Shown: positions 2,222-13,680 of the stretch, one piece after another
How the letters are laid out: the number at the start of each line of letters is the position of its first letter
Position numbering within the stretch: the first letter of the stretch is position 1
NCBI RefSeq assembly: GCF_009193255.1
Contig: NZ_WACG01000002.1
Location: forward strand, 558,001-622,000
From: Arthrobacter koreensis
GTDB taxonomy: Bacteria; Actinomycetota; Actinomycetes; Actinomycetales; Micrococcaceae
DNA: 64,000 nt
Reading direction: 5' to 3'
The notes under the pieces: model-generated
Databases searched by the model: none
Seen by the model: only the letters and a program-made list of their open reading frames with translations
What the model was told of the DNA's origin: nothing
Made by a program: the position numbers and the translations under genes

Positions 2222-3058
2222 CTAGAGGGAAACGGAGCCGTCGATGCAGGTGACAGACTCCCCGCCGATCCAGATGCGCCCCTCGCGGGTGAAGACCCTG
2301 ACCAGCCCGGAGCGGTGGACAGCGGTGCCCTGGGTGACGGTGTAGCGTTCCTCGGCGATTCCGTCGCCGATCAGCCACTGGGCCAGTCCGGCGTTGAGGC
2401 TTCCGGTAACCGGATCCTCGGACACGCCCAGGCCGGGCGCGAACGCGCGGACCTCGAAGTCCGTCTCGGCTGATTCCGGCTGCGGGCCAATCACACCCAC
2501 CCGAAGGTCGCCGATGGCGGCGTGGTCCGGACGCAGCGAAAGTACGGTCTCCGCATCCGGGAGCAGCAGGCCCAGCCAGCCGGGACCATTGTCCACCCAC
2601 TGGTGTCCGCGGACCTGGTCCGGAGTAAGCCCCAGTGCAGCCGTCACGCGCGCCAGTGTCCCTTCCTCCACCGGCCCGGTGCGGATCAGCCGGGGAGCCG
2701 CAAACGCCGCCAGGCCCGCGTTGACGCGCAGGGGCACCAGCCCGATTCCGCATTCCTGCACCACCAGCCCGGGCTTGATCGGTGTGTTGCCGGCCTCGGT
2801 CCACGCGTGGCAGGTTCCCAGCGTCGGATGTCCGGCGAACGGAATCTCCCCGCCGGGCGTGAAGATCCGCACCCGGTAATCCGCCTCGTCCTGCGTAGCC
2901 GGAAGGACAAAAGTGGTTTCGGAGAGGTTCGTCCAGCGGGCGAACTGCAGCATCGCCTCGTCGTCGAGGTCTTCTCCATCCAGGACCACGGCCAGCGGGT
3001 TGCCCTGATACGGCTTGCTGCCGAAGACGTCTACCTGTTTGAACCAGCGTTGTCTCAT
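2222..3058 (-). CDS. PhzF family isomerase/epimerase-like protein (copy 1)
   Basis: 278-residue member of the PhzF/diaminopimelate-epimerase fold family. PhzF isomerises dihydro-3-hydroxyanthranilate, but most family members have unknown substrates. Visible motifs are VDVFGSKPYQGNPLAVVL at the N-terminus, the catalytic-Glu segment WTNLSETTF near residue 45, FTPGGEIPFAGHPTLGT, and EDPVTGSLNAGLAQWL in the second half-domain. The start is ATG 3058; the frame is open further upstream, but that region is non-coding in character. It is a clear paralogue of the gene at 3891-4748. No other phenazine genes are nearby, so phenazine synthesis should not be inferred. Confidence 0.9.
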   Translation of the reverse strand: MRQRWFKQVDVFGSKPYQGNPLAVVLDGEDLDDEAMLQFARWTNLSETTFVLPATQDEADYRVRIFTPGGEIPFAGHPTLGTCHAWTEAGNTPIKPGLVVQECGIGLVPLRVNAGLAAFAAPRLIRTGPVEEGTLARVTAALGLTPDQVRGHQWVDNGPGWLGLLLPDAETVLSLRPDHAAIGDLRVGVIGPQPESAETDFEVRAFAPGLGVSEDPVTGSLNAGLAQWLIGDGIAEERYTVTQGTAVHRSGLVRVFTREGRIWIGGESVTCIDGSVSL

Positions 3059-3179
3059 GCGGACACTGTAATGGCTGTCTGCGGGAGTGCGGGAAGACGT
3101 GCCGTTACGAAGTGTTGCCCGGCATGCCCGTAATGTGACGGATGTTTGCCCCGGGACATTCTGGCTCCTAGATTGGTAG

Positions 3180-3300
3180 CCAGAATCAAGAGTTCCAGCC
3201 ACAGGCCCTGGCCGGCTGGACGGCAACCCTCTCGCCGTAGCGGGGTGCTCCAGGTGACGATTCGGCCGTTCCGGTGGATCTCCCGGTCCGGCAAGTACAG
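3180..3300 (+). ncRNA. SAM-IV-like riboswitch
   Basis: Leader RNA upstream of the flavin reductase gene. It carries the SAM-I/SAM-IV-type core: P1 strands GAATC (3183-3187) and GATTC (3259-3263), AAGAGTTCCAGCC, CGGCAACCCTC around 3221-3231, and GGGGTGCTCCAGGTGA at 3242-3257. A downstream stem and the terminal GGCAAGTACAG (about 3290-3300) fit the extra 3' element and pseudoknot of the actinobacterial SAM-IV class. SAM-IV senses S-adenosylmethionine and normally lowers expression of sulfur or methionine genes. An inverted repeat ATTCTGGCT/AGCCAGAAT at 3159-3186 overlaps its 5' edge. Confidence 0.75.
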
Positions 3301-3354
3301 CGCTGGCCTTCCGCGGTTCACGCAGGAGGCTGCGCGTCAGGCAGAGGAATCTCG

Positions 3355-3861
3355 ATGGCACTTGAAACCGATCTCCATCCCAACGCACTGCGCCAGGCCT
3401 TTGGACGCTTCCCATCCGGCATTGCAGCCCTCTGCGCGGAAATCGACGGCGCACCGCAGGGAATCGTGGCTTCCTCCTTCACCGTCGGCGTCTCCATGGA
3501 TCCGCCCCTGGTCATGTTCGCGGTGCAGAACACTTCCCGCACCTGGCCGGTTCTGCGGACTGCCGGACGGATTGGCGTGTCTGTCCTGGGCACGGGGCAC
3601 GACGGCGTCTGCCGCCAGATCGCTTCCCGCGACGGCGACCGCTTTGCCGGGCTGAGCCTGCACAAAGCCGAAACGGGCGTCCTGTTCCTGGACGAGGCCG
3701 CCCTCTGGCTCGAAACGTCAGTCGAGAACGAGATACCTGCCGGGGATCACGCCGTCGTCCTGCTCCGCGTCCACGGCTACTCAACCCACGACGGCGCACA
3801 TGAGCCGCTGGTCTTCCACGGCTCTGCCTTCCGGAATCTCGCGGTTCCGGCATTTGCCTGA
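3355..3861 (+). CDS. Flavin reductase family protein
   Basis: 168-residue flavin reductase-like FMN-binding (split-barrel) protein. Such proteins use NAD(P)H to reduce FMN/FAD for a partner monooxygenase. Family signatures are LRQAFGRFPSGIAALCA, the flavin-binding stretch GIVASSFTVGVSMDPPLVMFAV, SRTWPVL, and a C-terminal GDHAVVLLRVHGY. The start is ATG 3355 with AGAGG just upstream. The same frame is open further upstream but runs over the riboswitch. It lies directly behind a SAM-IV-like RNA, which suggests a role in sulfur assimilation (for example feeding a two-component sulfonate or methionine-related monooxygenase). No monooxygenase partner is adjacent. Confidence 0.9.
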   Translation: MALETDLHPNALRQAFGRFPSGIAALCAEIDGAPQGIVASSFTVGVSMDPPLVMFAVQNTSRTWPVLRTAGRIGVSVLGTGHDGVCRQIASRDGDRFAGLSLHKAETGVLFLDEAALWLETSVENEIPAGDHAVVLLRVHGYSTHDGAHEPLVFHGSAFRNLAVPAFA

Positions 3862-3890
3862 GCCGGCACCCACTTCACTAAGCTCAGATA

Positions 3891-4748
3891 GTGACTCCCG
3901 AAACTCCCGCGTCCGACCGCCCGTTCGCCCAGATTGATGTGTTCAGTTCCGAGGCCTTCGGCGGCAATCCGCTCGCCGTCGTCCTTGAATCCTCCGGGCT
4001 CAGCACCGCCCGGATGCAGCAGTTTGCGAACTGGACCAACCTGGCCGAGACCACGTTCCTCCTCCCGCCAACGGATCCGCAGGCCGACTACCGTGTCCGG
4101 ATCTTCACGCCCACCGAGGAGCTGCCGTTCGCCGGGCATCCCACCCTCGGCTCTGCCCATGCCTGGCTGGAAGCCGGAGGCAAACCCCGGCATGAAGGCA
4201 TCCTCGTCCAGGAATCCGCCGCCGGCCTGGTGCGGATCAAGGCGGACGACGCCGGCCTGCTGGCCTTCGCGGCTCCGGAACTGACACGGTTCGGGCCTGT
4301 TGCCCGGGACGTCCTGGACCGTGTGGCGGCCGGCCTGGGGCTTCCCCGTGATGCGCTGAAGGACGCTGCCTGGCTGGTCAACGGGCCAGAGTGGATCGGT
4401 GTGCTGCTCGAATCGGCAGCTCAGGTACTGGCCATCCGGCCCGACTACCCGGCCATGGCCGGCCTGGCCGTCGGCGTCATCGGCCCGCACCCCGGCGGCG
4501 CCGCGAGCGAGTTTGAAGTACGCACCTTCATCTCCGATGAGCTTCCCTGTGAGGACCCCGTGACGGGGAGTTTCAACGCCGGTGCAGCTCAGTGGCTGAT
4601 TGGCAGTGGAAGGGCGCCGTCGACGTACACCGCCGCGCAGGGGACGGTCCTGGGCCGAACCGGCCGCGTCCAGGTGGAAGCCGACAGCGGGGACATTTGG
4701 GTGGGCGGCGAGTCCAGGACCCTCATCTCCGGGACCATCAGGATCTGA
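3891..4748 (+). CDS. PhzF family isomerase/epimerase-like protein (copy 2)
   Basis: 285-residue PhzF-fold protein starting at GTG 3891, 29 nt after the flavin reductase and in the same direction, so probably under the same riboswitch. Motifs match copy 1: IDVFSSEAFGGNPLAVVLES, WTNLAETTFLLP with the catalytic Glu, FTPTEELPFAGHPTLGS and EDPVTGSFNAGAAQWL. The two copies differ enough to be an old duplication. The substrate is unknown. A strong hairpin follows the gene. Confidence 0.9.
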   Translation: MTPETPASDRPFAQIDVFSSEAFGGNPLAVVLESSGLSTARMQQFANWTNLAETTFLLPPTDPQADYRVRIFTPTEELPFAGHPTLGSAHAWLEAGGKPRHEGILVQESAAGLVRIKADDAGLLAFAAPELTRFGPVARDVLDRVAAGLGLPRDALKDAAWLVNGPEWIGVLLESAAQVLAIRPDYPAMAGLAVGVIGPHPGGAASEFEVRTFISDELPCEDPVTGSFNAGAAQWLIGSGRAPSTYTAAQGTVLGRTGRVQVEADSGDIWVGGESRTLISGTIRI

Positions 4749-4756
4749 TGCGCCGG

Positions 4757-4798
4757 CCCGGTGGTGTGCGTCGCTGCCTCCGGACGCGCACCACCGGG
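4757..4798. terminator. Hairpin between convergent genes (likely bidirectional terminator)
   Basis: CCCGGTGGTGTGCGTC (4757-4772) pairs with GACGCGCACCACCGGG (4783-4798), with one G-U wobble. It sits between the stop of the PhzF gene (4748) and the stop of the convergent metalloprotease gene (4806). There is no long T tract on either side. Confidence 0.75.
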
Positions 4799-4805
4799 GG
4801 CTCAG

Positions 4806-7800
4806 CTAGGCATCAAGTCCCACCCGGAACAGCACAGCCAGACTGTCGGAATTCAGTGCGGCCAGTCCCGGATTCGCAGCTGCCTGGAGTCCGGTCCAGA
4901 TTTGGTTTGCGCCCGAGTTCTTCGCGTACATGCCGGCGAATCCCCGGTCCCGGTAGAAGTCGAGGTAGCTCGAGACGGCGCTCTTGATGTGCCCGTCAGC
5001 CTCCGGAAGCCATACCTGGGATCCGTCAGCCGGTGCGCACGGCGCTGCCTTTACCGGAGTTGCCGGCACCAGGCACAGGTCGGGGCGGGCCTGGCTGTGG
5101 ATGGCGCCGCGGGTGTCCATGAACCAGCGCTGCTCATCCGTATCCGCGCAGGCGTTCTTGCTGATGGGCACGGTGACGCCGAGGTCCTCCCCCAACACCA
5201 GGCAGTGGCCGTTGTTGACCTGCAACCGGCTGCCCTCCGGCAGGTACTTCTCGGAGCTTTCCATGAATCCATTCGCGGCCAGGAGGGATTTGAGCTCTGC
5301 TGCGGCAGCCGGGTCCCCGGCTTCAAGGCCTGCTCCGTTCACCCGGATAAACGCGTCCGTTGACGCAACGGCGAAATCCAGGCCGGCGATAGTAGCGAGA
5401 CTGGCCGCGCTCAGCACGGCCGTCCCGGGGCTGCCGGCCGCAGCCAGCCCGGTCCAGACCTGGTTGGAGCCGTTTGTCCTCCCGTACATTCCCGCAATTC
5501 CCTGGTTGCGGTAGAAGTCCAGATAGCTCGAGACAGCGCTCTTGAGGTGTCCGTCAGCTTCCTGGATCCACACCTGGGCTCCCGACGTCCGGGCACACGG
5601 GGACGTGCTGACCGGCGTTCCGGCCACCAGGCACAGGTCAGGACGCAGTTCGCTGTGAATGGCTCCGCGCGCATCCTGGAACCAGCGCTGGGCGGCCGTG
5701 TCGGCGCACAGCGTTTTGTCCTTGGGCACGGTGACGCCGAGGTCTTCTCCCAGCACCAGGCAGTGGCCGCCGTCTACCAGCAGGCTTCCACCCGCAGGGA
5801 GCACCCGGGTGGTGCTCTCGGTGAAACCGGCTGTGTCCAGCAGCGAGAACAGTTCAGCGGTCACGGCCGCATTCCCCGACTCGAGCGGCTCCTGGTTGAG
5901 CCGGATGAAAGCGTCCACCGAGGCGGCGGTCTCCGTCTGCGCCAGGACAGAATCGGCGATGTCCCGGGCGGCCGGACTGAGTCCCCGCAGATCGTCCTTC
6001 CAGCTCGCCAGGAGCACGGTTCCCTCGGTATCCAGCACCGGCGCCGCGCGGCCTGCTACGGCCTGCAGCTTCGCCTCAAGCTCCGGCAGCTCAACGGCCC
6101 GCAGGGCTTCGTACCCGGCGTCCTGCCCAATCACCACGGCGGGACGCAGCGGTTCCTGGTTCGGCGCAATTGAAATCGAGTTGCCCAGCTTGGTGGTTGT
6201 CCCGTTGATGCGGCAGTAGATCGATGCCCCGGACGGCTGGTCGGAATGCGCCAGGTTGACGTTGAACTGCTTGACACCGTCGCTGGCCTGCAGCGCGGTC
6301 CTATCCACCCGGCCGTCGGCGAAGGTGACCTCAAGCCAGCAGCGGCGGGTTGAATCCGTGGTTGCGGTATCCGCCTGCGGAAGGCGGAAAACGTTGCCGT
6401 AGTTGCTGCGGAACGCGGGGTAGAGGACTGTTTGCTCCGGCTTCGCAGGGTTGTACCCGCCCAGCAGGGTGTAGACCGGAACCCCTACCGCTGTAGGCCG
6501 GGGAGCCGAAAATGCCGGTGTCTTCACCTTCGCATCGACATACTGACCGGCGGCGGCGTCCCAGTCCCGGTAGCCGCTGGGATAGGCGAGGTCCGGAACC
6601 ACGGTGCGCAGGGAGCGCTGGGTGATGTCGGTGCTGTAACCGGTGACATGGGTGTAGCGGGAAAGGGTGCTGGAATTGCTGCCGCCGGACATGGTGTCAC
6701 GGTGGTAGTTGTAGATCCCCTGGTAGTTTTGGCTGAACTTTCCGGCGCTTAGGTCGAATCCCTCGGCCGTGAAAGCGGTGTTCGAGGACAGGTTGGACCG
6801 CATCCGGTCCCGGTAGGCAATGTAGCCCCAGCCGCTTTCGCTGTGGTGGCTCGCATTGATGACCCGTTCGTCGCCCTGCTTGGACGTGTCGACCCCCGGG
6901 TAGTGCCCCAGCCCGTAGGAATGGCCGAGTTCGTGGCTGAGCTCGTTGCCCACCGAGTCATACAGGGTTGCCATGCCGTTGCCGCCGCTGAGTCCGTGCC
7001 GGTGTACCCCGTTGGCGTAGTTTCCGGCGGAGTGGTGGATGATCCGCTGGTTGAACGTGCCGGGCTGCCTCTGGTCCATGGGTCCGCTGGTGGTGCCGAA
7101 GTTAGCAAGGTTTATGCCCGTGCTCACCTGGGCCTTGCCAACGTTCTCCCGCAGGTCCCCGGAATAGACATCGCCATTGACGGCGCTCTTTTCCTCGTAG
7201 ACCGTTCCGGACGCCACAATGACCTTATCCAGGCGTACCGGTTCGTAAATGGCCATGGTCAGTTTTGATACCGGAATTGTCTGGAAGTAGTCAGACCCCG
7301 ACTTCTCGGGCTCATTGAACATGTAATGCCCGCTGGATTCCGGATAATCGGTGAGCATGCCGAGCTGAATGGAGCTGATCACCATTTCCGCCGGTGCCGC
7401 GAATTCGATGCCCGCACGTTCCAGCACCCCGCTGCCCTTGTCCGTTTCGAAGGTCAGTTCAAGTCCGGGCTTCATCCAGTTCCAGGGCAGCTCGGCGGTC
7501 CAGGCTGTTGAGGAATAGGCGACGTCCGGCCTGTTCTGCGTGATGTCCATGTCCGAGCGGGGAATCTGTGCCGGCGGTGCCAGTTCCATAGTTCCCTGCA
7601 AGGCTCCGTTCACGGTGGCCGTGACGCTGGCCCGCGCTGCCCCGGACTCCGGAGAGAAGAGGACCAATGCAGCCCGGTCCGTCACCAGTGACGGCATTCT
7701 TGCCGCAGTGTTGCCGGCAGGGTTGATCGTATGGCTTTGGGCGAATTGGACCTGGCCCCGGAGGACGCCGGCGAGGTCGTTCCGTAGCTCGCGCGGGGCT

Positions 7801-8024
7801 CCGGACGCCGTCGTGTCGTAGAAACCGGCTATGTCGAGCGGGAGCTGCGATTCCGTGGAGCCGGTGGCTGCAGTGTCCTTCCCGGGGGTTTGCGGTATCT
7901 CCGTGGCGAATCCGGTGATGCCCAGGACCAAGGCGGCGCTCAGCGACGCCGTGGTCAGGCGGCTGCCCAGGGAATGTGTTTTTGGTGCGGTGCGATGTCG
8001 TTCTCGCGCAGGTTGAGACTTCAT
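4806..8024 (-). CDS. Secreted M66-like metalloprotease with two C-terminal lectin-like repeats
   Basis: 1072-residue exported protein with an N-terminal signal peptide (basic start, then TASLSAALVLGITGFA). The catalytic motif HELGHSYGLGH near residue 360 is the HExxHxxGxxH zinc site of the M66 (StcE/TagA) class, with ASHHSESGWGY downstream. Residues ~700-1072 hold two tandem ~187-residue repeats. Each begins DAFIR.N, contains GHCLVLGEDLGVTVP, a DLCLV..TP segment and QVW motifs as in ricin-B-type lectins, and ends SYLDFYR. Characterised M66 enzymes cleave mucin-type glycoproteins, so binding and cleaving a glycosylated or polysaccharide-bound substrate is a reasonable inference. The start is ATG 8024, with AGGA upstream. 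Confidence 0.85.
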   Translation of the reverse strand: MKSQPARERHRTAPKTHSLGSRLTTASLSAALVLGITGFATEIPQTPGKDTAATGSTESQLPLDIAGFYDTTASGAPRELRNDLAGVLRGQVQFAQSHTINPAGNTAARMPSLVTDRAALVLFSPESGAARASVTATVNGALQGTMELAPPAQIPRSDMDITQNRPDVAYSSTAWTAELPWNWMKPGLELTFETDKGSGVLERAGIEFAAPAEMVISSIQLGMLTDYPESSGHYMFNEPEKSGSDYFQTIPVSKLTMAIYEPVRLDKVIVASGTVYEEKSAVNGDVYSGDLRENVGKAQVSTGINLANFGTTSGPMDQRQPGTFNQRIIHHSAGNYANGVHRHGLSGGNGMATLYDSVGNELSHELGHSYGLGHYPGVDTSKQGDERVINASHHSESGWGYIAYRDRMRSNLSSNTAFTAEGFDLSAGKFSQNYQGIYNYHRDTMSGGSNSSTLSRYTHVTGYSTDITQRSLRTVVPDLAYPSGYRDWDAAAGQYVDAKVKTPAFSAPRPTAVGVPVYTLLGGYNPAKPEQTVLYPAFRSNYGNVFRLPQADTATTDSTRRCWLEVTFADGRVDRTALQASDGVKQFNVNLAHSDQPSGASIYCRINGTTTKLGNSISIAPNQEPLRPAVVIGQDAGYEALRAVELPELEAKLQAVAGRAAPVLDTEGTVLLASWKDDLRGLSPAARDIADSVLAQTETAASVDAFIRLNQEPLESGNAAVTAELFSLLDTAGFTESTTRVLPAGGSLLVDGGHCLVLGEDLGVTVPKDKTLCADTAAQRWFQDARGAIHSELRPDLCLVAGTPVSTSPCARTSGAQVWIQEADGHLKSAVSSYLDFYRNQGIAGMYGRTNGSNQVWTGLAAAGSPGTAVLSAASLATIAGLDFAVASTDAFIRVNGAGLEAGDPAAAAELKSLLAANGFMESSEKYLPEGSRLQVNNGHCLVLGEDLGVTVPISKNACADTDEQRWFMDTRGAIHSQARPDLCLVPATPVKAAPCAPADGSQVWLPEADGHIKSAVSSYLDFYRDRGFAGMYAKNSGANQIWTGLQAAANPGLAALNSDSLAVLFRVGLDA

Positions 8025-8265: not shown

Positions 8266-10047
8266 CTAGGAGGCTGGCTTGTCCTGCTTCTTCTCCGGCT
8301 TGAAGTCCACGCCGGCTTCCTTGCGCTGCTGGGCGCTGATCGGAGCCGGAGCGGAGGTCAGCGGATCGTAGCCGCCGCCGGACTTCGGGAAGGCGATGAC
8401 GTCGCGGATCGAGTCGGCGCCGGCCAGCAGCGCCACCACACGGTCCCAGCCGAAGGCGATGCCGCCGTGCGGCGGAGCGCCGTACTTGAAACCTTCAAGC
8501 AGGAAGCCGAACTGTTCCTGGGCGGTCTCCTCGGAGATGCCCATGACCTTGAAGACACGTTCCTGCACGTCGCGGCGGTGGATACGGATTGAACCGCCGC
8601 CAATTTCGTTGCCGTTGCAGACGATGTCGTAGGCGTAGGCCAGGGCGGAGCCGGGATCGGTGTCGAAGGTGTCCAGGAACTCGGGCTTCGGGGAGGTGAA
8701 GGCGTGGTGCACTGCGGTCCACTCGCCTTCACCGGCGGCTACGTCCCCGGCTGCCACTGCTGCGGCGGCGGGCTCGAACATCGGGGCGTCAACGATCCAG
8801 ACGAATGCCCAGTCCTTCGGGTCGATCAAGCCGGTGCGGTGGCCGATTTCAACGCGGGCAGCGCCAAGCAGGGCACGGGCTTCGGAAGTCTGGCCGGCAG
8901 CGAAGAAGATGCAGTCGCCGGGCTTGGCGCCGACCTTTTCGGCCAGGTTCTCACGCTCGAAGTCGGTGAGGTTCTTGGCGACCGGACCGGTGAGGGTGCC
9001 GTCTTCCTGGACCAGCACGTAGGCCAGGCCCTTGGCGCCGCGCTGCTTGGCCCATTCCTGCCAGGCATCGAGGGTGCGCCGGGCCTGAGAGGCACCGCCG
9101 GGCATCACCACGGCACCGACGTAGGGCGCCTGGAAGACGCGGAACGTGGTGTCCTTGAAGAACTCGGTGAGCTCAGTCAGTTCCAGGCCGAAGCGCAGGT
9201 CCGGCTTGTCGGAGCCGTAGCGGGCCATGGCATCCGCGTAGGTCATCCGGGCGATCGGGGTCTGGATCTCGACGCCGATCAGCTTCCAGAGCGACTTCAC
9301 GATCTGCTCGCCGAGGGCAATGATGTCATCCTCTTCGACGAAGCTCGCCTCGATATCCAGCTGCGTGAACTCCGGCTGGCGGTCGGCACGGAAGTCTTCG
9401 TCGCGGTAGCAGCGGGCAATCTGGTAGTACTTCTCGAACCCGCCCACCTGCAGCAGCTGCTTGAACAGCTGCGGGGACTGCGGGAGCGCGTACCAGGAGC
9501 CGGGGGCCAGCCGTGCCGGGACCACGAAGTCGCGGGCACCCTCGGGAGTGGAGCGCGTCAGCGTGGGGGTTTCGATCTCCACGAAGCCCTCGTCGTGGAG
9601 CAGTTCACGGGCCACGCGGTTGGCCTCGGAGCGAAGCCGCATGGCGGCGGCGGGAGCCGGACGGCGCAGGTCCAGGTAGCGGTGCTTCAGGCGTGCTTCC
9701 TCGCCCACCTCCACGTGCTCGTCGATCTGGAACGGCAGCGGGTCGGAAGTGTTGAGGATGACGACGTCGTCCGCAATGACCTCTATCTCGCCGGTGGCGA
9801 GGGCGGGGTTCTCGTTGCCTTCGGGACGGCGCTCGACCTTGCCGGTGATCTGCAGGACGTACTCATTGCGCAGGCCGTGGAAGACGTCCTCTTCACGGAC
9901 AACAACCTGGGCAACGCCGGAGGCATCACGCAGGTCAAGGAAGGCTACGCCTCCGTGGTCCCGGCGGCGGGCAACCCAGCCGGCCAGGGTGACAGTCTGT
10001 CCAATATGCTCGGCCCTCAGGGAACCAAGGGCATGTGTGCGCAGCAC
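8266..10047 (-). CDS. aspS: Aspartate-tRNA ligase
   Basis: 593-residue class II synthetase that charges tRNA-Asp. The N-terminal OB fold carries [19 protein letters not shown]. Class II motif 2 is [19 protein letters not shown] and motif 3 is [13 protein letters not shown] near the C-terminus. The bacterial GAD insertion domain lies between them ([19 protein letters not shown]). The start is GTG 10047 ([10 protein letters not shown]), chosen because GAAAGGA sits at the right distance; an in-frame ATG further upstream would add a non-conserved leader. The length is normal. It is divergent from the APC permease gene. Confidence 0.96.
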
Positions 10048-12530: not shown

Positions 12531-13616
12531 TCAGCCTAGGGTGCCAGGGCGGTCCGGACTATTCCGGCTCTCCTCCGCCGGCGCGTGAGTTTGGCTACCG
12601 TGTTCCATGAGCCAGGCGATGACCTGCCCTGCGGGAAGCTGCGGCGCGTTCCGCCAGCCGGTTCCGGCCCACAGGTGCAGGGTGTCGGCGTCGCCCGCTT
12701 TGCCGGCCGCCTGGCGCAGTTCCCGCGTGAGGTGGTGTACGGCTGGATAGGCAGTCGGGGCGGAACCGCCGTGACGTTCGGCGAATCCGTTGCGCAGCGC
12801 CCGCGCCGGCCTGCCCGTGAATGCGCGGGTAAGCACGGTCTCGGAGAACTCGCTGCCGGCCAGTGCGGAGCGGTGGGTGGGTGAGGTCCCGGCTTCGTCC
12901 GCCAGCAGCAGCAGGGTTCCCACGGCCACAGTGTCCGCACCGGCAGCCAGGAGGGCCTGGACAGCTTGAGGACCGTCGACACCGCCGGCGGCGATGACCG
13001 GCAGGCCGGTTGCTGCCCGCACTTCCCTGACCAGGTCTGCGGTGGATACCTCGTTGATCTGGCGGTCCGCGTCGAAGGTGGCGCTGTGGCCCCCGGCCTG
13101 CGGCCCCTGGACTATCAGCCCGTCCACACCGGCATCCTGTGCCTGGCGTGCCTCCGCGGGGGTGGTCACGGAAGCGAGGACGGTGGTTCCGGCCCCCTGC
13201 AGCGCGGCGATGTCCGCCGCTGCCGGCAGTCCAAAGGTCAGCGAGACGACGTCGACTGGATCCTGGATCAGCAGCTCAAGCTTTTCCTCCCAGAAGTCGT
13301 CATCGGCCACCGGCTGCTCGCCAAGAGTCAGCCCGTAGCGGTCCGCTTCGGGCTGCAGCCGCCGGGCATAAGCGCGAAAGGCAGCTTCATCTACGGGGTC
13401 CGGCGACGGAACGAAGAGGTTCACGCCGAATGGGTATCCACCGGCCCGGAGTTCGCTGATTTCCGCTGCGAGGGCAGCGGGCGTCTTGTAGCCGCCGGCC
13501 AGGAACGCAAACCCGCCGGCGTCAGCAACGGCTGAGGCCAGCGCCGTCGTTGTTGGTCCGCCGGCCATGGGTGCTGCGGCGATCGGCAGGCGGGAGGGAA
13601 GGATTGGGTCAGGCAT
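12531..13616 (-). CDS. Nitronate monooxygenase (NMO/2-nitropropane dioxygenase family)
   Basis: 361-residue FMN-dependent TIM-barrel protein. Conserved blocks are PIAAAPMAGGPTTTALASAV at the N-terminus, GGFAFLAGGYKTP, GVNLFVPSP, QGPQAGGH (substrate and FMN-proximal His), and the phosphate-binding stretch VIAAGGVDGPQAVQALLAAGAD. These enzymes oxidise alkyl nitronates, but many genomic members are of unknown substrate. The start is ATG 13616 with AAAGG upstream. It is transcribed towards the deaminase gene. Confidence 0.88.
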   Translation of the reverse strand: MPDPILPSRLPIAAAPMAGGPTTTALASAVADAGGFAFLAGGYKTPAALAAEISELRAGGYPFGVNLFVPSPDPVDEAAFRAYARRLQPEADRYGLTLGEQPVADDDFWEEKLELLIQDPVDVVSLTFGLPAAADIAALQGAGTTVLASVTTPAEARQAQDAGVDGLIVQGPQAGGHSATFDADRQINEVSTADLVREVRAATGLPVIAAGGVDGPQAVQALLAAGADTVAVGTLLLLADEAGTSPTHRSALAGSEFSETVLTRAFTGRPARALRNGFAERHGGSAPTAYPAVHHLTRELRQAAGKAGDADTLHLWAGTGWRNAPQLPAGQVIAWLMEHGSQTHAPAEESRNSPDRPGTLG

Positions 13617-13680
13617 CGATGGGCCTTTCGGGACGTCGGGAGTCTTTCGGCCATTGGGGCCTTGCGGGAGCTGCGCGGGC

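Follow-up and report, generated by a model that had tools for sequence, protein, structure and literature searches.

Why should a SAM riboswitch precede a stand-alone flavin reductase gene, and do the PhzF genes on either side of this pair belong to what it controls? The question is raised by a stretch of 64,000 nts from Arthrobacter koreensis, called here the window, in which a first-pass annotation made from the letters alone had placed a SAM-IV-like riboswitch in front of a flavin reductase gene and one of two PhzF genes, the other being divergent. The Pfam-supported gene calls agree with that description (Table 1).

Table 1. Features around the SAM-IV leader and further SAM-IV loci of the same genome (positions refer to the window unless a locus is named)
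Feature	Position or locus	Strand	Basis
PhzF copy 1, divergent	2222..3058	-	PF02567, 195.9 bits
Likely promoter TTGCCC - 17 nt - TAGATT	3146..3174	+	read from sequence
SAM-IV riboswitch aptamer (P1, P2a/b, PK-1, P3, PK-2, P5)	3184..3303	+	RF00634 match and covariation
PK-2 3' strand UACAGC, pairs with GCCGUA of the P3 loop, one C.A mismatch	3296..3301	+	hand-drawn pairs, covariation
Shine-Dalgarno-like GAGGAA	3344..3349	+	sequence; similar stretch by eye in 17 genus leaders
Flavin reductase, 168 aa, split-barrel, related to PDB 3pft/4ywn	3355..3861	+	PF01613, phmmer
PhzF copy 2	3891..4748	+	PF02567, 166.3 bits
1072-aa protein, between PhzF copy 2 and aspS	4806-8024	-	secreted-looking by eye
SAM-IV before NtaA/DmoA-family FMN monooxygenase (DmoA-like)	L066		
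Two divergent SAM-IV forms	L067, L068		
Type 5 divergent SAM-IV	L067:5990-6116 (= G000:C9:199989-200115)	-	
Type 6 divergent SAM-IV	L068:4197-4330	+	
Open frame behind type 6	L068:4347-4733	+	
SAM-IV before MetQ-like gene, then MetN-like and MetI-like genes	L069		
SAM-IV before metY-metX	L070		

The aptamer and its leader

When the whole window is searched with cmscan, SAM-IV is the sole RNA family to reach the gathering threshold. The match to RF00634 covers the full length of the model (positions 1-116 of 116) and scores 91 bits against a cut-off of 38 (E 4.2e-15), so that the riboswitch first noticed by eye has passed the covariance-model check. In the structural comparison, the helices were taken from the Rfam model and PK-1 and PK-2 from the SAM-IV architecture described in PMC6890682, the exact PK-2 pairs being drawn by hand on these sequences. 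Twenty-one aptamers were included: that of the window, the metY, metQ and monooxygenase leaders of the same genome, 15 from other genera and two more from the genus. Over 30 pairs, both pseudoknots among them, 97.8 % of the cells are standard, as against at most 45.3 % in slid versions. Double-sided changes are found at 16 of the 30 pairs, a number that none of 500 shuffles reaches (shuffle mean 8.0). Every helix, including PK-1 and PK-2, has at least one pair changed on both sides, and covariation backs P1, P2, P3, PK-1 and PK-2. The worst-paired helix of the set is PK-2 (89.5 % of cells); the window's own copy keeps four of its five pairs and has one C.A mismatch.

The position of the likely promoter places the start of the RNA just before the aptamer. 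This arrangement recurs in relatives: the motif TTG[AC]-16 to 21 nt-TANNNT, ending 3-16 nts before the aptamer, is present in 51 of 61 related leaders (from the best 80 of 235 named loci) versus 0.9 % in shuffles. A scan of positions 3050-4850 with a stricter promoter consensus (9 of 12 matches) returns nothing, and the same interval yields no intrinsic terminator.

By analogy with known SAM riboswitches, SAM should lower expression of the gene downstream, the start of which lies 51 nts from the aptamer. No switch is recognisable downstream of the aptamer in the terminator scan of this interval or in the folding of 20 leaders. In the latter, the accessibility of the Shine-Dalgarno sequence is hardly different with and without the aptamer (0.47 and 0.42, respectively), and there is no consistent masking. 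A pairing of the leader stretch GGCAGAGG with CCUCUCGCC of the aptamer was also considered as a switch. It is possible within the genus but, judged by eye, the complementarity is lost in other genera, and it was therefore dropped as an expression platform. With respect to SAM-IV leaders elsewhere, one passage of PMC8269248 describes a premature transcript in Streptomyces clavuligerus, and a passage of PMC3890552 records a short observed stretch over the SAM-IV preceding cg1478 in C. glutamicum. Both observations would fit transcription control.

The riboswitch-reductase unit and the PhzF genes

The reductase belongs to PF01613 (113.5 bits versus 27). A phmmer search relates it to 3pft (E 1.8e-48), which we take to be DszD, and to 4ywn (E 6.7e-48), and a profile of 12 members of the group finds the same two structures (4ywn, E 1.3e-56; 3pft, E 4.6e-56). 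Since its scores against the named NCBIfam reductases HsaB, FerA, HpaC, StyB and RutF all stay below the cut-off (at best 106.5 bits versus an equivalog cut-off of 230), the enzyme is none of these by name. We infer from these matches that it probably has NADH:FMN activity.

A close relative of the reductase (77-100 % identity) is encoded in 17 of the 29 genomes that make up our sample of the genus, the window's included, and SAM-IV lies directly upstream in all 17; in one of them (G022) the reductase is split over two frames. Named relatives of the locus include Arthrobacter gandavensis, A. citreus and A. luteolus. The other 12 genomes have exactly three SAM-IV matches each, none of which stands beside a reductase match. 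Within the family Micrococcaceae, 21 of 32 genera have a relative of the reductase at E 1e-35 or better. Twenty other genera were studied through one representative each, with stretches of 7.4 kb for the neighbours: SAM-IV precedes the reductase in 15, SAM-I in one (L130) and no SAM riboswitch in four, in one of which (L134) the reductase lies behind an SsuC-like gene and another monooxygenase gene. Among the best 80 of 235 named loci, 61 have SAM-IV just upstream according to our own model R1; the remaining 19 have no SAM riboswitch by cmscan, and in five of these a monooxygenase gene directly precedes the reductase. The named loci (L196-L275) overlap the numbered genomes, L196 and G006 for example sharing contig coordinates, and the counts for the genus, the other genera and the named loci are thus not independent. 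The flanks of the reductase, named by eye, vary by genus, being hisD-like in some and rplI-like in others, which means that riboswitch and reductase stay together in changing surroundings.

None of 20 reductase loci scanned in other families of the order has a SAM riboswitch, a set that leaves aside L177, L189, L191, L192, L195 and the matches without a locus. In five of these 20 the reductase directly follows the gene of a monooxygenase related to the DmoA-like protein described below (about 40 % identity). At L130, the genus with SAM-I rather than SAM-IV, the reductase is the first gene of a run that also includes acsA and a MetY homologue and is divergent from a SAM-I-led pair of DszC-like and DmoA-like genes (riboswitches at L130:5046-5132 on the minus and 5383-5469 on the plus strand). 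Two classes of SAM riboswitch are thus found before the same gene in different genera.

A SAM-IV aptamer, a promoter-like site before it and a flavin reductase gene after it form a conserved unit in the Micrococcaceae. That the aptamer is a mere relic, no longer regulating the reductase, is barely credible: the failure to recognise an expression platform and the mismatch in the window's PK-2 would fit such a reading, but the sequence, the pairs and the position of the promoter are kept across genera, and SAM-I takes the place of SAM-IV at L130. As a separate observation, two named loci carry a weak second SAM-IV-like match of 39-40 bits with model R1 (L234:2561-2672 and L235:2567-2675, both on the minus strand). 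This match and the reductase leader stand back to back on opposite strands, and the gene that follows the match codes for the binding protein of an ABC transporter (in L235, SBP_bac_5).

The first-pass annotation had suggested looking for the order riboswitch-reductase-PhzF in relatives. Its first two members are kept, as seen above, but the third is not. The two PhzF proteins of the window are 55 % identical. All 29 genus genomes encode copy 1 (at least 72 % identity), whether they have the riboswitch-reductase pair or not. Wherever the pair exists (17 of 17 genomes), copy 1 is divergent from the reductase and 0.1 to 1.4 kb from the aptamer. The site was checked in four of the 12 pair-less genomes (L278-L281): in each, aspS and phzF1 are adjacent and run in the same direction, with about 135-165 nts between the matched stretches. 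At both checked loci with the pair (L282 and L283), the reductase lies between aspS and phzF1 in the opposite direction. From the adjacency of aspS and phzF1 in genomes lacking the pair, it follows that the divergent arrangement simply marks the site where the pair sits.

Copy 2 begins 29 nts after the reductase in the window and, since no terminator was found, read-through control of this gene is possible in the present strain. It adjoins the reductase in four of the 17 genus genomes and is 3.7 kb off in a fifth (G011); 11 of the 12 pair-less genomes also have a second PhzF copy. Of the best 80 of 235 named loci, 10 have a PhzF match no more than 3 kb from the reductase, all of them from this genus by name and coordinates, and none was seen near the reductase in the 7.4 kb stretches from the 20 other genera. 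The short gap behind the reductase and the constant divergence of copy 1 could be taken to mean that riboswitch, reductase and both PhzF genes form one functional unit handling a sulfur metabolite. We consider this very unlikely, given that copy 1 is there regardless of the pair, that it neighbours aspS when the pair is missing, that copy 2 is adjacent in four of 17 genus genomes and unseen near the reductase in the 20 other genera, and that second copies also occur where the pair is missing. The link to PhzF is therefore positional, and the role that had been imagined for the PhzF pair is not borne out: copy 1 looks like a bystander and copy 2 like a read-through passenger, at most, in a few strains. 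The 1072-aa protein encoded beyond copy 2 has relatives near the same place in four named loci (L197, L199, L201 and L202, among the best 80 of 235).

Probable partners of the reductase in the SAM riboswitch regulon

Including that of the window, the genome has six SAM-IV matches over the cut-off. Two of the other loci carry genes of methionine synthesis and import: MetY and MetX pass their NCBIfam cut-offs (765 versus 703 and 456 versus 331, respectively), and MetQ and MetI are the best NCBIfam matches of their genes, below the cut-offs. A third precedes the gene of the DmoA-like protein, which scores 565 bits with TIGR03860 (versus 279.7) and has dimethyl-sulfide monooxygenase 6ak1 as its closest solved structure (575 bits, E 7.6e-172). 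Taken together with the conserved pair, the presence of SAM-IV before metY-metX, the MetQ-like gene and the DmoA-like gene upholds the earlier idea that the riboswitch ties the reductase to sulfur metabolism.

The DmoA-like gene (L066) is divergent from the genes of an SsuA/SsuB-type sulfonate transporter, before which lies a SAM-I match below the threshold, and, about 2 kb further, an over-cut-off SAM-I leads a run of MetN-like, presumed permease, second NtaA/DmoA-family, DszC/SfnB-like and MetQ-like genes. The DszC-like protein is closest to the probable monooxygenase 8cda, the methanesulfinate monooxygenase 6u76 and DszC. These are the only two SAM-I matches of the genome, with none at the window, and SAM-IV and SAM-I classes thus come to lie within 4.2 kb of each other (L066:9482-9643 on the minus strand, 9875-9990 and 13557-13661 on the plus strand). 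Among the four PF01613 genes of the genome, none is beside either of the two monooxygenase clusters. Further SAM-IV loci of the genus precede a tandem pair of DszC-like genes (L161), a MetQ-like run (L162) and an ABC transporter whose binding protein is nearest to TIGR04028, below the cut-off (L159, L160).

The DmoA-like protein (at least 83 % identity) is encoded in exactly those 17 of 29 genus genomes that have the reductase and is missing from the other 12, and SAM-IV precedes its gene in 16 of the 17 (not in G013). The two genes are far apart in complete genomes, for example at 1.03 and 3.22 Mb in G003. Since the split of 17 versus 12 genomes may be one evolutionary event, it does not amount to 29 independent data points. 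Over 197 genomes of the family, with the monooxygenase counted at E 1e-150, 92 have both proteins, 14 the reductase only, 29 the monooxygenase only and 62 neither; at about 60 % identity or more for the monooxygenase, the corresponding figures are 92, 14, 9 and 82. Because family genomes share ancestry, Fisher values of this co-occurrence overstate the evidence. When the tables are compared by eye, the two genes are at most 21 kb apart in 14 of the 92 genomes, 10 of which come from one genus (g13, that of L130), and at most 2.4 kb apart in seven. In two of these seven (G035 and G172), the linked genes code for more distant copies (reductase 44-46 %, monooxygenase 55-58 %). The partner monooxygenase that had been supposed to be encoded elsewhere is thus likely this DmoA-like FMN monooxygenase with a SAM-IV of its own, and the second monooxygenase operon, led by SAM-I, is possibly a further partner.

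Co-occurrence, linkage and shared control lead us to think that reduced flavin made by the reductase probably reaches SAM-repressed organosulfur monooxygenases in trans, with the PhzF genes as bystanders. When SAM is plentiful, the RNA would bind it and expression of the reductase would be lowered; when sulfur or methionine runs short, expression would rise. The enzyme would then make reduced FMN with NADH, and this would pass by diffusion to FMN-dependent monooxygenases encoded elsewhere, which would cut sulfur from organic compounds. The first candidate among these is the DmoA-like enzyme; possible further ones are the NtaA/DmoA-type enzyme and the DszC-like enzyme under SAM-I. MetY, itself under SAM-IV, would finally fix the sulfur set free.

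Several points count against this scheme. No switch is recognisable behind the aptamer; SAM riboswitches are missing at 19 of the best 80 of 235 named loci, in four of the 20 genus representatives and at all 20 loci scanned in other families of the order; the DmoA-like gene of G013 has no SAM-IV; and 14 of the 106 reductase-bearing family genomes have no DmoA-like protein. These 14 genomes also speak for a SAM-controlled FMN reductase of general use, working for some other flavin enzyme or for many of them and not for the DmoA-like monooxygenase in particular. One such flavin reductase can often stand in for another, and the genome contains three other PF01613 genes (one beside a third NtaA/DmoA-like gene at L163, two elsewhere) as well as two PF03358 genes that could also supply FMNH2. 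A comparison of positions shows, on the other hand, that of all these genes only the window's reductase stands at a SAM riboswitch. Also speaking against such a general role are the occurrence of reductase and DmoA-like protein in the same 17 of 29 genomes, their physical linkage in some genera, and one of the exceptional genera (L134), where the reductase follows an SsuC-like and another monooxygenase gene. It seems to us unlikely, and supply in trans to the organosulfur monooxygenases is the reading that we retain.

Divergent SAM-IV forms and comparison with known systems

The two remaining SAM-IV matches of the genome belong to divergent forms that are widespread in the genus. Type 5 (63-69 bits) is present in 27 of 29 genus genomes, with relatives of the present copy at L143-L146, L149-L151 and L284-L302. 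It precedes a MetE-like gene in 12 genomes; in 15 it is followed by an open frame of 41-59 aa and then, overlapping or nearly so, by the gene of a PIN-like protein, of which four copies read to the end measure 126-139 aa. When the 15 proteins are combined into a profile, it finds the FitB structure 2h1c (E 2.3e-14). Pfam PIN is found at E 0.01 in 10 of the 15, and four scored singly fall below the Pfam cut-off, one of them without a match. No Pfam family is recognised in three small frames (42-59 aa) searched. Judging from these resemblances, the small frame and the FitB/VapC-like PIN protein may constitute a pair of toxin-antitoxin type led by a SAM-type riboswitch.

Type 6 (39-52 bits) is found in all 29 genus genomes. 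In the ten looked at, it precedes a conserved protein of 126-144 aa, the frame being disturbed in L156. This protein has no Pfam match in eight copies, and that of the window's genome has no NCBIfam match. When 18 divergent copies are aligned by fitting them to the model, double changes preserve every pair of P1 and P3 in all 18, and P2 as aligned is complete in type 5 and has 5 to 8 of its 9 pairs in type 6.

It is tempting to speculate that one class of SAM-sensing RNA, at six scattered loci, sets a whole sulfur-starvation programme. In it, the reductase would power several unlinked monooxygenases in trans, methionine would be synthesised and imported, and a divergent SAM-IV would bring in a FitB/VapC-like PIN operon. 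We regard this wider proposal as possible, if rather doubtful. If it holds, SAM shortage would switch on sulfur scavenging together with a toxin-antitoxin-type growth brake.

Each component, from SAM-IV and the reductase family to two-component organosulfur monooxygenases, is already known; what seems new is their association. In the open-licence literature we found no paper joining a SAM riboswitch with a flavin reductase, SAM-IV with a monooxygenase, or SAM-IV with Arthrobacter, a result that does not prove that none exists. Many stand-alone flavin reductases have no partner in their annotation, and shared riboswitch control gives such an orphan a testable partner and substrate class. It also suggests that FMNH2 supply is itself under SAM control, and it opens organosulfur use by Arthrobacter and its relatives to direct testing.

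With respect to the riboswitch, the window's copy resembles known SAM-IV (RF00634) in its full-length match, with the same helices and both pseudoknots, and elsewhere in this genome the class stands before metY and before a MetQ-like gene. A passage of PMC3774663 places SAM-IV upstream of O-acetylhomoserine sulfhydrylase in M. avium. The location before a stand-alone flavin reductase is what sets the present copy apart. With respect to the enzyme, the best solved relatives 3pft and 4ywn recall DszD and the other PF01613 reductases of two-component monooxygenases, DszD being mentioned in part of PMC3868597 as used with desulfurising monooxygenases. Unlike these, the reductase studied here mostly does not lie beside its presumed monooxygenase and has its own promoter-like site and riboswitch. 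A further parallel is provided by DmoAB and the pathway of DMS-assimilating Acinetobacter baylyi, where, according to an excerpt of PMC13352529, one flavin reductase serves all monooxygenases. A DmoA-like oxygenase and, as we propose here, a single reductase for several monooxygenases would be common to both systems. The A. baylyi reductase, however, is annotated as MsuE, whereas the one described here belongs to PF01613 and is tied to its oxygenase by shared riboswitch control.
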